Positions 21,822 through 26,988 of a DNA stretch of 45,039 bases are shown here, piece after piece. Every line of letters begins with the position of its first letter. Within the stretch, counting starts at the first letter, position 1. The notes under the pieces were generated by a model that ran no database searches, was not told the DNA's origin, and saw only the letters and a list, made by a program, of their open reading frames with translations. This DNA comes from Streptosporangiales bacterium (GTDB lineage Bacteria > Actinomycetota > Actinomycetes > Streptosporangiales > WHST01), in contig WHST01000046.1 of the NCBI GenBank assembly GCA_009379955.1, forward strand, positions 1-45,039. Reading direction: 5' to 3'. Position numbers and translations under genes: made by a program.

Positions 21822-22585
21822 GTGGAGACCATCAATCGTGCGGAGCTGGCCGAGGCGCTCACGGCCGGGACGGTCACGGTCGTCGACGCCTTGCCGGCCG
21901 CTCCGTTCGCCAACCGGCACCTACCCGGCGCGCTCAATCTGACCATCGAGGAGATCGCCGACGTCGCCGACATGCTGCCTGACAAGGCCGCCGCGGTCGT
22001 CACCTACTCCACCGACGCGTCCTGCACCCGTGGACCAGAACTGGCCGAGGCCCTCACCGCCGCCGGCTACGGCAACGTCCGCGTCTACACCGACGGGATT
22101 GCCGACTGGGCGGCCGTTGGCCTTCCCCTCGAATCCGGCGCCACCGCGGAGAAGCCGTCCGAGCCGCCGACCGCCACCGGATCGTCCGACGACCACGACG
22201 CCGTCCGGGCACTGGTACGGCAGTGGGCGGAGCTGGAACGCACCCAAGACGCCGACGGTCTCCAGAACCTGCTCACCGATCAGTTCACCGGCATCGGCCC
22301 GGTCGGGTTCGTCCTCGACGCCCGACAATGGGCCGACCGACACCGCGGCGGCGACCTGGTCAACACGCGTTCGACGTCACCGACATCCAGATCGCCGGAT
22401 ACGGCGACACCACCGTCGTGCACGCCGTCGAAACCCAACGCACCACCGCCCGAGGCCACGACAACAACGGATCCTTCCGAGCCGGACTCACCCTCATCCG
22501 CGGCGCCGACGGCTGGAAGATCGCCCACATCCAGCTATCAGGCCCCATGATCCAACCCCCACAGAACCCGCCGTTCACCCAGTGA
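21822..22585 (+). pseudogene. Rhodanese-like domain plus SnoaL/DUF4440-like domain gene, frameshifted
   Basis: The first frame from 21822 encodes a rhodanese fold: VVDALPAAPFANRHLPGALN and YSTDASCTRGPELAEALTAAGYGNVRVYTDGIADW, with the active-site Cys in SCTRGPEL. It continues into the start of an NTF2/SnoaL-like domain (HDAVRALVRQWAELERTQDADGLQNLL, then FTGIGPVGFVLDARQWADRH). Near 22364 the protein continues in another frame, HAFDVTDIQIAGYGDTTVV through GADGWKIAHIQLSG, to the stop at 22585. One base appears lost (or two gained). Without the shift the product would be a two-domain protein of about 254 residues. The frameshift could be real or a sequencing error. The gene is divergent from the TetR regulator and probably controlled by it. 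Confidence 0.65.
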
Positions 22586-22780
22586 CCCGGACACTCGGTC
22601 CGACGAGTGCACCCGGTCCGAGAAATGACTGGCGGCAACGCGTTGCCTTTGTTGGGTGTATCCGTTCTTCGTCGGCACCGGCTCGGCCAGTGACCTGCTC
22701 TACCGCGCTGGATCGTCCCCCCGATGGGCAGGCGCAGGCCGCTCACCGAGGCCGGCTGTGACGCGACAGGCATCGCCGAG

Positions 22781-23272
22781 CTACGCGCCACCGGGGTTAT
22801 CCGCTGAACCACCGGCGACCGCGCCGGGGCGTACGGTGTCGCGCACGACGCTCAGCGCCTTCATCAGGGCATCGAGCTGCTTGACACCGAGGACGCCGGT
22901 GAAGCATGCGTCGATCTCCTTGAGTAGCGGCGGAAGAACGGCGCGTACGCGGTCGTGTCCCTGCTTCGTGAGCACCGCGAACGAGCTACGTCGGTCGCCT
23001 GGACATGGCTCGCGCTGAACCAGTCCGTGTCGTTCGAGCCGGTCGACGACCCGGGTGACACCGCTCGTCGACATCGAGGTCTGGACGGCGAGGTCGGTCA
23101 TCCGCAGCCGGCTCTTCGGGGATCGGGCGAGCCGGATCAGGGTGTCGAAGTCGTTTCCCGAGATGCCGTGGCTGGTGTGCACGGGGGTCAGTCGGCTGGT
23201 GACACCTTCGTACACCTCGATGAGCAGACCCATCGCGGTGAGTCGCGGGTCGTCGAAGTCGGGTCTGGCCAT
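22781..23272 (-). CDS. MarR-family transcriptional regulator (copy 1)
   Basis: A 163-residue MarR-type winged-helix protein. It has FDTLIRLARSPKSRLRMTDLAVQTSMSTSGVTRVVDRLERHGLVQREP through the recognition helix (about residues 42-90), followed by the wing GDRRSSFAVLTKQGHDRV. It ends with dimerisation helices. It is closely similar to the next gene in order, length and sequence (both end in VVRDTVRPGA or AVRDTVRPGA), so the two are tandem paralogues. A shared 17-base element lies about 22 bases upstream of each start codon. Such regulators usually respond to phenolic or other aromatic ligands; here the ligand is unknown. Confidence 0.85.
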   Translation of the reverse strand: MARPDFDDPRLTAMGLLIEVYEGVTSRLTPVHTSHGISGNDFDTLIRLARSPKSRLRMTDLAVQTSMSTSGVTRVVDRLERHGLVQREPCPGDRRSSFAVLTKQGHDRVRAVLPPLLKEIDACFTGVLGVKQLDALMKALSVVRDTVRPGAVAGGSADNPGGA

Positions 23273-23294
23273 TCCGACAGTGTACGCGATCTAG

Positions 23295-23311
23295 TTGACG
23301 TGGGGAAAACT
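23295..23311. repeat. Shared upstream element, copy A (before MarR copy 1)
   Basis: TTGACGTGGGGAAAACT, read on the + strand, lies in the leader of the first MarR gene. It matches copy B (23850-23866) at 16 of 17 positions and copy C (23926-23941) more loosely. Its position just upstream of a regulator start makes it a candidate operator or core promoter element retained after gene duplication. Confidence 0.5.
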
Positions 23312-23355
23312 GCGAGCGCAAGGGTGTGGTCCTCTGCCCGCACGACGTGGGAGGT

Positions 23356-23829
23356 CTAGCCGCTACTCCCGGCTGCCGCGCCGGGGCGGACGGTGTCCCG
23401 TACCGCGCGCAGCGCCTGCAGGGCGGCGTCCAGATCGGCCGGTGGTAGCAGGCTGATGAACCACCGGTCGATGGCCTCGACGAGGATCGGGAGTACGGCG
23501 GCCAGCTGTTCGGCGCCGGCGTCGGTGAGCACCGCGTACGAGCCGCGCCGGTCGCCGAGATACGACTCGCGGCATACCAGGCGTCGCAGTTCCAGGCGGT
23601 CGACGAGCCGGGTGGCTCCGCCGGTGGACAGGGACATCTGCGCCGCGAGGTCACCCATCCGCAGCCGCCGACCCGGCGACCGGGCGAGCCGGATGAGCGC
23701 GTCGAAGTCGGGCATGCCGTCGAGCTGGTCGGCGAACAGCGTGCCGGTCCTGGCTCGAAGGCTGCTCCGGACTTCGATCACAAGGCCGACCGCGGTCAAG
23801 CGATGGTCGGCGAGCTGTTCCTCGGTCAT
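23356..23829 (-). CDS. MarR-family transcriptional regulator (copy 2)
   Basis: A 157-residue MarR paralogue of the preceding gene. It shows FDALIRLARSPGRRLRMGDLAAQMSLSTGGATRLVDRLELRRLVCRE as the winged helix, the wing LGDRRGSYAVLTDAGAEQL, and terminal dimer helices ending AVRDTVRPGA. The start at ATG 23829 gives a protein that begins TEEQLADHRLTAVGLVIEV, aligned with the sister protein's N-terminus. The open frame upstream is unrelated. It is divergent from the DoxX/FMN-reductase operon and likely controls it. Whether both copies bind the same site or form mixed dimers is open. Confidence 0.87.
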   Translation of the reverse strand: MTEEQLADHRLTAVGLVIEVRSSLRARTGTLFADQLDGMPDFDALIRLARSPGRRLRMGDLAAQMSLSTGGATRLVDRLELRRLVCRESYLGDRRGSYAVLTDAGAEQLAAVLPILVEAIDRWFISLLPPADLDAALQALRAVRDTVRPGAAAGSSG

Positions 23830-23849
23830 GCGTCCACGGTACGACTTAT

Positions 23850-23866
23850 TTGACGTGCGGAAAACT
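23850..23866. repeat. Shared upstream element, copy B (before MarR copy 2)
   Basis: TTGACGTGCGGAAAACT begins 21 bases upstream of the second MarR start codon. It differs from copy A at one base and occupies nearly the same distance from the start codon, so the element was duplicated with the gene or is under selection as a binding site. Confidence 0.5.
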
Positions 23867-23925
23867 ACCGCAGCAACATTGACCTCGAGCCACCGCCCTG
23901 GAGGCGTCGTCCATCTGCTGTTCTC

Positions 23926-23959
23926 TTGACACGCGGAACTTCCTCGATGAAGATAAGTA
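23926..23959 (+). promoter_or_regulatory. Candidate promoter of the DoxX operon overlapping element copy C
   Basis: TTGACA at 23926-23931 is followed after about 18 bases by AAGATA, giving a reasonable -35/-10 pair pointing at the DoxX gene. The -35 overlaps TTGACACGCGGAACTT (23926-23941), a looser third copy of the element found upstream of both MarR genes. A repressor bound here would block the promoter directly. Confidence 0.45.
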
Positions 23960-24003
23960 GTTGTCACAGCAGATATCCGCATCGCAGGTTCTTTGGAGGG
24001 ATC

Positions 24004-24429
24004 ATGGCGAACGAGATCACGGCGCGGGAAGCGCCGGCCCAGGCCGGCACCTCTCGTGGTGTCAACGCGCTGCTCTGGGTGCTGCAGGCCTTCGCGGCCG
24101 CCGGGTTCGTATTCGGCGCCTTCGGCAAGTTCACGGCATTCCCCGCGGCGGTCGAGGTCTTCCAGTCGATGGGCACCGCGGGCTGGATGCCCTACGTCAT
24201 CGCGCCACTCGAGGTGCTCGGGGCCATCGCACTCGTCGTGCCGCAGCTCCGGCTGTACGGCCTCGCCGCGGTCGCCTTCGTGGCGCTCACCGTCGGCGCA
24301 GTCATCAGCCACCTTGTCTGGGGTGGCAACCCGATGTCGGCCGTCATGCTGCTCGTCATCTCCGCGGCCATCGCGTGGGGTCGCCGCTCGAACACGGCCG
24401 ACCTGTTCGCCCGTCTCGGCCGCCGGTGA
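24004..24429 (+). CDS. DoxX-family membrane protein
   Basis: A 141-residue protein with four predicted membrane helices: LLWVLQAFAAAGFVFGAFGKF, MPYVIAPLEVLGAIALVV, LAAVAFVALTVGAVISHLVW and SAVMLLVISAAIAW. The early FGKF and the central VIAPLEVLGAIALV are typical of the DoxX/DoxD-like group, whose members are linked to quinone-dependent oxidation and redox stress. The ATG at 24004 has GGAGGG about four bases upstream. It is the first gene of a three-gene operon with an FMN reductase and a split-barrel oxidoreductase, suggesting a quinone- or electrophile-detoxification unit under MarR control (inference). Confidence 0.82.
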   Translation: MANEITAREAPAQAGTSRGVNALLWVLQAFAAAGFVFGAFGKFTAFPAAVEVFQSMGTAGWMPYVIAPLEVLGAIALVVPQLRLYGLAAVAFVALTVGAVISHLVWGGNPMSAVMLLVISAAIAWGRRSNTADLFARLGRR

Positions 24430-24458
24430 CCACCTCGATCGACGAACGGAAGTGAGTC

Positions 24459-25022
24459 ATGACCAACGTCCTCGCCATCTCAGGCAGTCTGCGGACCGGT
24501 TCGTTCAACTCGATGCTGATCGAGGCCGCGCGCGAGCGCGTGCCGTCCGGGATGAGCATCGAGGTCTATGAAGGGCTGCGCGACATCCCGCCGTACGACA
24601 GTGGGATCGACACCGAGGCACCGCCGCCGCCGGTGGCGGACCTGCGGGCCCGCATCGCCGCGGCCGACGGTCTGCTGATCGCGACGCCGGAGTACAACTA
24701 CGGCGCACCCGGCGTGCTGAAGAACGCCCTCGACTGGGCGTCGACGCCGCCGTGGGCTTCCGTGCTGCAGGGTAAGCCGGTGGCGCTGATGGGCGCCTCC
24801 CCGACGCCGTTCGGGACCGTGCGCGCACAGCTGGCGCTGCGCCAGGTCTTCCTCTGGACGGGCTCGCCCGTCGTGACGAAGCCTGAGGTGCTGGTCTTCA
24901 GTGCATACGAGCGGTTCGACGCCGACGGACGCTTGACCGACGAGGGCACCGCGGAGCTGGTGTCGGGGCTGCTCGCGGCGTTGGACGCCGAGATCCTGGC
25001 TCTGCTCCCGGTCGCGGTCTGA
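24459..25022 (+). CDS. NADPH-dependent FMN reductase (flavodoxin-like fold)
   Basis: A 187-residue flavoprotein. It has the phosphate-binding SGSLRTGSFNSML loop at residues 7-19, the ATPEYNYGAPGVLKNALDW motif near 75-93, and KPVALMGASPTPFGTVRAQLALRQVF near 107-132, all typical of the NADPH:FMN reductase/azoreductase family. It reduces FMN, quinones or azo compounds with NADPH. It lies 29 bases after DoxX, and its stop lies 12 bases before the ATG of the split-barrel gene. It might also feed reduced flavin to the halogenase encoded 2 kb downstream, but that would normally need FADH2 from an HpaC-type reductase. Confidence 0.88.
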   Translation: MTNVLAISGSLRTGSFNSMLIEAARERVPSGMSIEVYEGLRDIPPYDSGIDTEAPPPPVADLRARIAAADGLLIATPEYNYGAPGVLKNALDWASTPPWASVLQGKPVALMGASPTPFGTVRAQLALRQVFLWTGSPVVTKPEVLVFSAYERFDADGRLTDEGTAELVSGLLAALDAEILALLPVAV

Positions 25023-25034
25023 GTGGTGAGCGAG

Positions 25035-25430
25035 ATGGACAGGACGATCGTGACCACGAGCGTGTTCTCCGCGGCGGAGCTGGCGTACCTCACGAACGAC
25101 GCGGGGTTGGGTCGCCTGGCCACGGTGGACTCCGCCGGTGCCCCGCACGTCGTGCCCACCGGCTGGACGTACAACGCGGAGCTCGACACCATCGACGTGG
25201 GTGGTCGAGACCTCACGGCCACCCGCAAGTTCCGCAACGTCCGTGCCCATCCGCAGGTCTGTCTGGTCATCGACGACGTGCAGCCACCGTGGCATCCGCG
25301 GTGCGTGCAGGTGCGTGGGGAGGCTGAGGCGATTCCCCACATGACCGGACCGGACGGCGAGGACCACGGTGCCATCATCCGAATCCTTCCGACCAGGGTC
25401 GTGAGCTGGGGCCTCGACGGCGGCGACTGA
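25035..25430 (+). CDS. PPOX-class (pyridoxamine oxidase-like) F420/FMN-dependent oxidoreductase
   Basis: A 131-residue split-barrel protein. It shows GLGRLATVDSAGAPHVVPTGW (residues 24-44) followed by the TIDVGGRDLTATRKFRNVRAHPQVCLVIDD block typical of PPOX-class proteins. It ends with the RILPTRVVSWGLDG tail characteristic of the small F420-type group. It binds F420 or FMN and probably reduces a small electrophile. ATG 25035 is used; GTG at 25023 and 25026 are alternatives that would add four or three residues. It is the third gene of the DoxX operon and is followed 30 bases later by a strong hairpin terminator. Confidence 0.82.
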   Translation: MDRTIVTTSVFSAAELAYLTNDAGLGRLATVDSAGAPHVVPTGWTYNAELDTIDVGGRDLTATRKFRNVRAHPQVCLVIDDVQPPWHPRCVQVRGEAEAIPHMTGPDGEDHGAIIRILPTRVVSWGLDGGD

Positions 25431-25460
25431 CCGTCAGCGGATCCCACCCGCTCCCGACCC

Positions 25461-25504
25461 ACGACGGAAGACCGCATCCCTTGGCGGAGGCGGTCTTCCG
25501 TCGT
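25461..25504 (+). terminator. Strong hairpin terminator after the DoxX operon
   Basis: A perfect 15-base inverted repeat (left arm 25461-25475, ACGACGGAAGACCGC; right arm 25490-25504) with a 14-base loop lies 30 bases after the split-barrel gene stop. A long T-run is lacking, as is common in actinobacteria. It insulates the redox operon from the antiporter/halogenase operon that starts 130 bases later. Confidence 0.75.
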
Positions 25505-25635
25505 CTTGCATGCCGGCACGACTCACGTGTCGGCATCGCGGGTTCACGTGATGACGGGGGCACGCGCCGCTTCGCATGCTTGATCACAGCGGCCGACGCG
25601 GGCCGCACAGACGCCGAGGCGAACAGGAGACCGTC

Positions 25636-26988
25636 GTGGACTCACGCATCGACCTGGCGATCGGCGTGCTGGCCGCGCTCGCGATCATCCTTGTGGCCAC
25701 CGGTGTCTGCGGACGACTGGCACAGGCGGTGGGGCAGCCGCGCGTCGTCGGCGAGATGGTCGCCGGCGTCGTCCTCGGCCCGTCGATCTTCGGCGCGGTG
25801 CTGCCGTCCGTCCAGCAGGACCTCTTCACGCCCGACATCAAGAACGTGCTGTACGTGCTGAGCACGATCGGCCTGACGTTCTACATGTTCCTGGTCGGCG
25901 CGGGCATCGACCATCAGTTCCTGAACCGCCGGTCGATCAGGCGGGCCGCGACGGTCGCGTCGTCCGGGATCGTCGTCCCGCTGGTTCTCGGCGCGGGCAC
26001 CGGCCTGCTGCTCGCCGACCGACTCGCCGGTCAGGGAACATCGACCGCGGGGTTCGCGCTGTTCCTCGGCGCAGCGCTGGCGGTGACCGCCTTCCCGGTG
26101 CTCGCGCGCATCCTGCAGGAACGTCGGATGACGAGCACCCCGCTGGGCTCGATGACACTCGTGGCGGCCGCCATCGACGACGCTGCGGCGTGGGCGCTGC
26201 TCGCCGTCGTCGTGGCCCTCGGTGCCGCGGGATCCACCTCGGGGGTGTTGATCGCGATCCTCGGCGCGGCGCTCTTCGCCGTCGGAATGTTCACCCTGGG
26301 ACGCCGGCTGCTCCGTCTCCTCGTGCGGCGGGTCGAGCGTGCCGGCACGATGACGCACGGCTCCGTGGTCGTCGTGCTGCTCATCGTCGTCGCGTGCGGG
26401 TGGTTCACCGACACGATCGGCATCCACTCGGTCTTCGGCGGCTTCATCGCCGGTGTCGCGCTGCCCGCATCCCCAGTGCTGCGCCGTGAGCTGACCACAC
26501 GACTCGCCGACGTCAACGCGGTGCTGCTGATGCCCGTGTTCTTCGTCTTCTCCGGCCTGAACACCGAGCTCGCCGGACTGCTGGACATCAGCCTGCTGCT
26601 GCCCCTCGCGCTCCTCATGCTCGTCGCCTTCGTCGGCAAGTACGTCGGCTGCGCGCTGGTGGTACGGCTGCACGGCTTCTCCTGGCGACACGCGTCCGCC
26701 GTCGGGGCGCTGATGAACGCGCGTGGCGTGATGATCCTGATCTTCATCAACGTGGGACTCGGGCAGGGCGTGATCGGTCCGCCGCTCTTCACGATGCTCG
26801 TGCTCGTCGCGGTGGTGACCACGGCGGCCGCGACGCCCATCTACCGTGCCTCGTTCCCGGTCTCTCTCGAGGACGCCGAGCGCGGCGCCGACGACCGATC
26901 GAGTGTCGACGCCGCCGACCCGCGGCCGATCCCGACCGCAGGCACCGTACGGACGACCACGTTGACCGAGAGGAAGGAACCCGCATGA
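25636..26988 (+). CDS. Cation:proton antiporter (CPA2/KefB-type)
   Basis: A 450-residue membrane protein with about twelve helices of the sodium/hydrogen exchanger superfamily. Typical blocks are GQPRVVGEMVAGVVLGPSIFG near residues 35-55, GAALAVTAFPVLARIL, the ion-site region LVAAAIDDAAAWALLAVVVAL with the paired Asp residues, and LMNARGVMILIFINVGL late in the protein. The C-terminal 40 residues are a polar cytoplasmic tail without a TrkA domain. The GTG at 25636 has AGGAGA five bases upstream. Its stop overlaps the halogenase ATG (ATGA), which is unusual and ties it to the biosynthetic cluster, perhaps for export-linked ion balance or self-protection. Confidence 0.87.
   Translation: MDSRIDLAIGVLAALAIILVATGVCGRLAQAVGQPRVVGEMVAGVVLGPSIFGAVLPSVQQDLFTPDIKNVLYVLSTIGLTFYMFLVGAGIDHQFLNRRSIRRAATVASSGIVVPLVLGAGTGLLLADRLAGQGTSTAGFALFLGAALAVTAFPVLARILQERRMTSTPLGSMTLVAAAIDDAAAWALLAVVVALGAAGSTSGVLIAILGAALFAVGMFTLGRRLLRLLVRRVERAGTMTHGSVVVVLLIVVACGWFTDTIGIHSVFGGFIAGVALPASPVLRRELTTRLADVNAVLLMPVFFVFSGLNTELAGLLDISLLLPLALLMLVAFVGKYVGCALVVRLHGFSWRHASAVGALMNARGVMILIFINVGLGQGVIGPPLFTMLVLVAVVTTAAATPIYRASFPVSLEDAERGADDRSSVDAADPRPIPTAGTVRTTTLTERKEPA

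Follow-up and report, generated by a model that had tools for sequence, protein, structure and literature searches.

The locus considered here has two adjacent genes for MarR-family regulators, each preceded by nearly the same short sequence. The question it raises is what this sequence does, and whether the two proteins, placed divergent from an operon of redox enzymes, regulate each other, as the original prediction proposed. The window analyzed is the whole stretch of 45,039 nucleotides from a Streptosporangiales bacterium (contig WHST01000046.1). The genes concerned are:

22781..23272, minus strand: MarR1, 163 aa, MarR-family regulator (Pfam MarR_2 7e-16, MarR 5.8e-12)
23356..23829, minus strand: MarR2, 157 aa, tandem paralog of MarR1 (Pfam MarR_2 1.6e-9)
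24004..24429, plus strand: DoxX-like membrane protein, first gene of the operon divergent from the MarR pair (Pfam DoxX_2 3.3e-11)
24459..25022, plus strand: NADPH-dependent FMN reductase (Pfam FMN_red 3.6e-38)
25035..25430, plus strand: PPOX-class F420-dependent oxidoreductase (NCBIfam TIGR04023, above its cut-off)

The doxX-FMN reductase-PPOX operon is thus divergent from two minus-strand MarR genes. MarR1 and MarR2 display 53% identity over 156 aligned residues (E = 5e-48), which bears out the proposal that the two align along their lengths, and both are above the Pfam cut-off for PF12802 and PF01047. A DUF24/HxlR domain, which we take to be the defining feature of the YodB/QsrR type (MarR/DUF24), is absent from the Pfam matches listed for the two proteins. 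A rhodanese and DUF4440-like reading frame at 21822-22585 shows an apparent break near 22365, and its later part continues in another frame.

The 17-base element reads TTGACGTGGGGAAAACT at 23295-23311 and TTGACGTGCGGAAAACT at 23850-23866. The copies are identical at 16 of 17 positions and lie 22 bases (MarR1) and 20 bases (MarR2) from the ATG, in agreement with a near-identical element about 20 bases before each start. In exact form it is present in the 6.6-Mb genome only at these two places, and with up to three mismatches there are 6 matches in total, versus 2 for a reversed control pattern. These whole-genome counts rule out an element that is frequent in the genome.

The element is also found upstream of relatives that have a single gene of this type. 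The comparison is with 67 single-copy orthologs (5 named Nocardia loci and 62 further loci) that are 49%–62% identical to MarR1; loci L012 and L013 (34%–36% identical) and the distant L036–L043 had been left out before this count. Within 90 bases upstream of the ortholog, the window 17-mer is matched at 12 or more of 17 positions in 51 of the 67 (shuffled mean 1.1), and at 13 or more in 39 (shuffled mean 0.15). Because it is matched upstream of 51 single-copy orthologs, the element predates the duplication, and an origin together with the duplication is rejected.

A matrix was built from the sites of 65 of the 67 relatives, with the window excluded. The relatives' own sites score 17.3 to 35.9 bits (median 29.3), and a site of at least 17 bits is present in 16 of 20 further loci outside the matrix (those without one are L103, L107, L110 and L112). 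Four of the 20 (L115–L118) have a second strong site, inverted relative to the first, which is what binding at the target promoter as well would lead one to expect; in some relatives a copy of the element also lies beside the divergent target gene, and some (e.g. L058, L033, L061) display perfect or near-perfect dyads, ATAGTTG-N6-CAACTAT, in the middle of the intergenic region. Taken together, this supports the view that the element has a regulatory role linked to this MarR family; it is predicted to be the family's own operator.

On this matrix the two best scores in the window are those of the two elements:

23291..23313, plus strand: putative operator O1, before MarR1, CTAGTTGACGTGGGGAAAACTGC, 24.4 bits
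23846..23868, plus strand: putative operator O2, before MarR2, TTATTTGACGTGCGGAAAACTAC, 22.5 bits

Apart from these and two sites termed O3 and O4 (see below), no place in the 45-kb window scores above 6.9 bits. A whole-genome profile search gave O1 and O2 as the only matches, with weak E-values (0.62 and 3.0). The dyad symmetry of the element is poor, 6 and 8 of 20 positions, unlike that of textbook MarR operators, and the strict consensus of the SCO3205/AbsC type, TTnAAnnnTCAA, has no match in 22701-24100. The likeness of O1 and O2 exceeds expectation: just 2 of 733 pairs of relatives at 50%–56% protein identity reach 16 of 17. This would fit selection for one shared site, or conversion.

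Two other MarR genes of the same genome also have TTG-N6-CAA sites in their divergent intergenic regions. One, at C10 (38% identity to MarR1), has two sites of this type (L093 1469-1520) and a zinc-type alcohol dehydrogenase-like gene as its divergent neighbor. The other, an SCO3205-like MarR at C140 (30%), has TTGACCGCTCAA (L095 1379-1401) between it and a divergent YceI gene, the only YceI match of the genome.

The promoter regions of the two MarR genes display the following features:

23279..23284, minus strand: TACACT, -10 like sequence of MarR1, 6 bases before the ATG in a leaderless arrangement (from sequence)
23836..23841, minus strand: TACCGT, -10 like sequence of MarR2, 6 bases before the ATG (from sequence and the pattern in relatives)
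23859..23864, minus strand: TTTTCC, overlapping the element and in the presumed -35 position of MarR2, 17 bases from the -10

The TTTTCC hexamer of MarR1 is 19 bases from TACACT. A strict scan for sigma-70 hexamer promoters over 22700-25700 found nothing. On the strand of the gene the element reads AGTTTTCC(C/G)CACGTCAA, and its best-conserved part, GTCAA, lies in the gene's direction between the -35 and -10 regions. In 56 of the 67 relatives an in-frame start is preceded, 6–7 bases away, by TANNNT and further upstream by GTCAA, and this arrangement suggests that the marR transcripts are probably leaderless. The distance from the end of GTCAA to the -10 is 11 bases in 39 of those 56 scored relatives. 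GTCAA in the spacer would be where a repressor blocks RNA polymerase.

Two weaker sites are found at the promoter of the divergent operon:

23922..23944, plus strand: putative weaker site O4, overlaps the likely doxX -35 (TTGACA, 23926-23931), 11.5 bits
23957..23976 (matrix window to 23979), plus strand: putative site O3, GTAGTTGTCACAGCAGATAT, 14.65 bits

A looser third copy of the element had been proposed to overlap the -35 of the DoxX operon. This copy, TTGACACGCGGAACTTC at 23926-23942, lies within O4 and is real as sequence; its score is weaker yet above chance, with 0.39% of shuffles of its 87-bp stretch scoring as high. As the sole site at doxX it is rejected, since O3, which was missing from the original prediction, scores higher (0.24% of shuffles of a 135-bp stretch score as high). 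O3, GTAGTTG-N6-CAGATAT, is an inverted repeat of imperfect symmetry and lies downstream of the likely doxX -35. The pattern WWAGTTG-N6-CARMTWW has two genomic matches with at most one mismatch, namely O3 and a site next to another MarR gene; this count by itself proves nothing, because the reversed control pattern gave five. In the DoxX-linked single-copy loci L035 and L112 the best sites reach only 12.1 and 12.6 bits, so that scores as modest as those of O3 and O4 are what comparable loci also show.

Among the genomes sampled, the tandem pair is confined to this one. A search of the order gave a match at E ≤ 1e-28 in 155 of 345 genomes, and a search of the class a match at E ≤ 1e-25 in 44 of 394; in both, only the genome of the window has two matches, and the pair is absent from every other sampled genome carrying the gene. 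Of two genomes of the same genus, G002 (77% complete) has no match to the MarR gene and G001 has a single MarR divergent from an FMN reductase. MarR2 therefore holds the ancestral place beside the operon. In G001 (L032 2018-3446) the FMN reductase is followed by an apparent fusion of a PPOX domain with what we take to be an isochorismatase.

Phylogenetic trees place MarR1 and MarR2 inside the ortholog family. Their sisterhood is neither established nor rejected (AU p = 0.377 on 75 rows, 0.325 on 41 rows). Shared rare residues were rejected as a proof of sisterhood: the copies share three, but 36 of 228 pairs reach three. The proposed duplication thus stands insofar as both copies are members of one family whose gene occurs only once in the other genomes sampled; the element is not its product but ancestral.

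The two copies differ at residues predicted to contact DNA. In the SCO3205-DNA structure, as described, Ser73 contacts bases and Thr62 a phosphate (PMC3737563); these align with positions 70 and 59 of the window MarRs. All 87 relatives (the 67 and 20 further loci) have Ser at position 70, as does MarR1, whereas MarR2 has Gly there. At position 59, Ser or Thr is found in 65 of 67 relatives, and MarR1 has Thr; the residue is Gly in MarR2 and in the single-copy MarR of G001, and the 20 further loci include one Gly (L117), one Ala and one Asn. The presence of Gly59 in single-copy G001 and L117 means that this change alone need not abolish function. Of 78 well-conserved positions, MarR1 keeps 66 and MarR2 60, and both keep R74, R78 and the wing residues D93-R94-R95. 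Judged by these residues, MarR1 is the likelier repressor of the sites, and the loss in MarR2 of a Ser70 kept in all 87 relatives suggests that cross-regulation may be one-sided. The proposed two-repressor switch is therefore only partly supported, and it is weakened in its mutual form.

A further residue may relate to the signal that is sensed. AbsC is described as bonding salicylate through a His (His120) (PMC3737563). The equivalent position here is 116, which is Leu in both window copies. A survey of this position covered 89 proteins (the 67, the 20 and both window copies). All 70 proteins with YceI as the divergent gene have His, and all 10 with a putatively esterase-like divergent gene (first seen in Nocardia) have Tyr; Leu or Val is present in all five with a DoxX or FMN reductase target, the window pair included. 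Four proteins with other neighbors have three His and one Tyr. The pattern was first noticed in the 67 and held in the 16 classifiable loci of the 20 later ones. It is a lead, not a statistical proof, because only about three changes are needed on the tree, with one or two independent pairs. When the five DoxX/FMN-type proteins are made to group together, the tree gains 8.4 log units over the free quick tree (AU p = 0.68), so that target and pocket may have switched once.

In 58 of the 67 relatives the divergent neighbor is YceI (Pfam confirmed one N-terminal stretch; the remaining assignments come from tblastn). In the window it is doxX, so the YceI arrangement does not apply here; the YceI of this genome is at another locus, beside another MarR. 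A C-terminal cysteine (RPCATAG, position 150) is found in 41 of the 67 relatives and may be a redox switch in them; it is Gly in both window copies. A redox or quinone signal at the locus is suggested by the neighboring enzymes and by analogy with MhqR; the two window MarRs display no conserved redox cysteine that would support it.

The explanation that follows is, as a whole, the one we consider probable. The 17-base element would be the operator through which members of an actinobacterial MarR subfamily, akin to Streptomyces SCO3205 and AbsC, regulate their own genes. It would consist of a half-site, ATAGTTGAC, between the -35 and -10, and of GGAA(A/T)A, the other-strand -35 of a probably leaderless marR promoter, and a MarR dimer on it would block its own transcription. 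Through O3 and O4 in the doxX promoter the same protein may repress the doxX-FMN reductase-PPOX operon. The tandem pair would have arisen when the gene was duplicated together with its operator. MarR1, with its DNA-contact residues kept, would be the likelier repressor of all four sites, and MarR2 appears to be diverging and probably binds them more weakly or differently.

Three other readings account for part of the same evidence. A core promoter only, with a -35 shared by chance or promoter conservation, would explain why TTTTCC falls exactly at the MarR2 -35 with its 17-base spacer, and why the TTGACA of O4 makes a good -35 for doxX. This is unlikely, and we give it very little credence: the best-conserved part, GTCAA, falls in the spacer on the strand of the gene, no gene reads rightward from O1, and the site recurs at target promoters. 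A mutual two-repressor switch, in which both proteins bind all sites similarly and cross-repress, each with its own phenol or quinone, is a tentative alternative with more in its favor. O1 and O2 are near-identical, more alike than the proteins predict, the R74, R78 and D93-R94-R95 wing residues are kept by both, and the related MarR repressors GbsR and OpcR are reported to share control of B. subtilis operons (PMC7396694). Against it are the MarR2 substitution at the invariant Ser70 and the Leu116 common to both copies, which does not suggest different effectors.

On a third reading, MarR2 may have acquired a different operator specificity. The helix of MarR2, LSTGGATRLVDRLE, resembles STGGFTKLADRLE of another MarR subfamily with another upstream motif; this GG-type helix is found in 7 of 10 distant MarRs examined, whose upstream motif is different (GAAGAT in several), and GAAGATAAGTA is present in the doxX promoter. 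The likeness of the motifs was judged by eye only, however, the remainder of the MarR2 sequence clusters with the Ser70 family, and O2 beside MarR2 is still intact, so that we regard a new specificity as rather unlikely. More speculative is the idea that MarR2, without the position-70 base contact, still dimerises with MarR1, and that repression by MarR1 is tuned or relieved according to the amount of MarR2, which the shared operator would set. MarR2 would then be a built-in anti-repressor controlled by the site for which it competes, and family-wide the DNA-reading helix would be fixed while residue 116 switches with the regulated gene. The subfamily with the GG-type helix (L036, L037, L039, L041–L043, L047) has its different upstream motif often with GGGAAGAT.

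An ancestral autoregulatory operator with MarR1 as the likelier repressor thus remains the preferred explanation. It provides a predicted conserved operator motif for an actinobacterial MarR group for which the literature found assigns no function. The motif makes it possible to predict autoregulation and targets from sequence, and one pocket residue appears linked to the kind of target gene. The tandem may be a natural example of one repressor becoming two, with the same control site retained by each. Open-licence PMC literature yielded no paper on this tandem, nor on a YceI-linked MarR operator of this kind except the SCO3205 paper.

Several known systems can be compared. MhqR of Staphylococcus aureus and Bacillus, of the MarR type, represses an operon that responds to quinones, and its site overlaps the start of transcription; it is likened here at the level of the MarR family only, and its operator is of the TATCTCGAA type (PMC6798810). 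ForJ and ForZ of Streptomyces formicae, another actinobacterium, are a pair of MarR proteins that govern a single pathway; one senses redox state, via a cysteine with no counterpart evident here, and the abstract describes no tandem duplication (PMC12421854). GbsR and OpcR of Bacillus subtilis are close relatives among MarR-type repressors; their targets overlap, and they are autoregulated. They differ in controlling osmolyte operons, each with a separate operator and mechanism, and adjacency is not indicated in the account consulted (PMC7396694).

SCO3205/AbsC of Streptomyces coelicolor (PDB 3zpl, 3zmd; PMC3737563) provides the best solved sequence relatives of both copies. The recognition helix differs (Arg72, Arg74 and His77 there, Thr69, Gly71 and Arg74 here), the strict consensus TTnAAnnnTCAA is absent here, and the ligand His of AbsC is replaced by Leu. 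The likeness lies in the placing of the sites, which in the published description are on both sides of a divergent intergenic region with the 12-bp TTG-N6-CAA spacing (PMC3737563). One SCO3205 site is described upstream of a gene for a polyisoprenoid-binding-protein homolog (YceI-like) (PMC3737563), and a YceI gene is the divergent neighbor in most of the single-copy relatives compared here (58/67).
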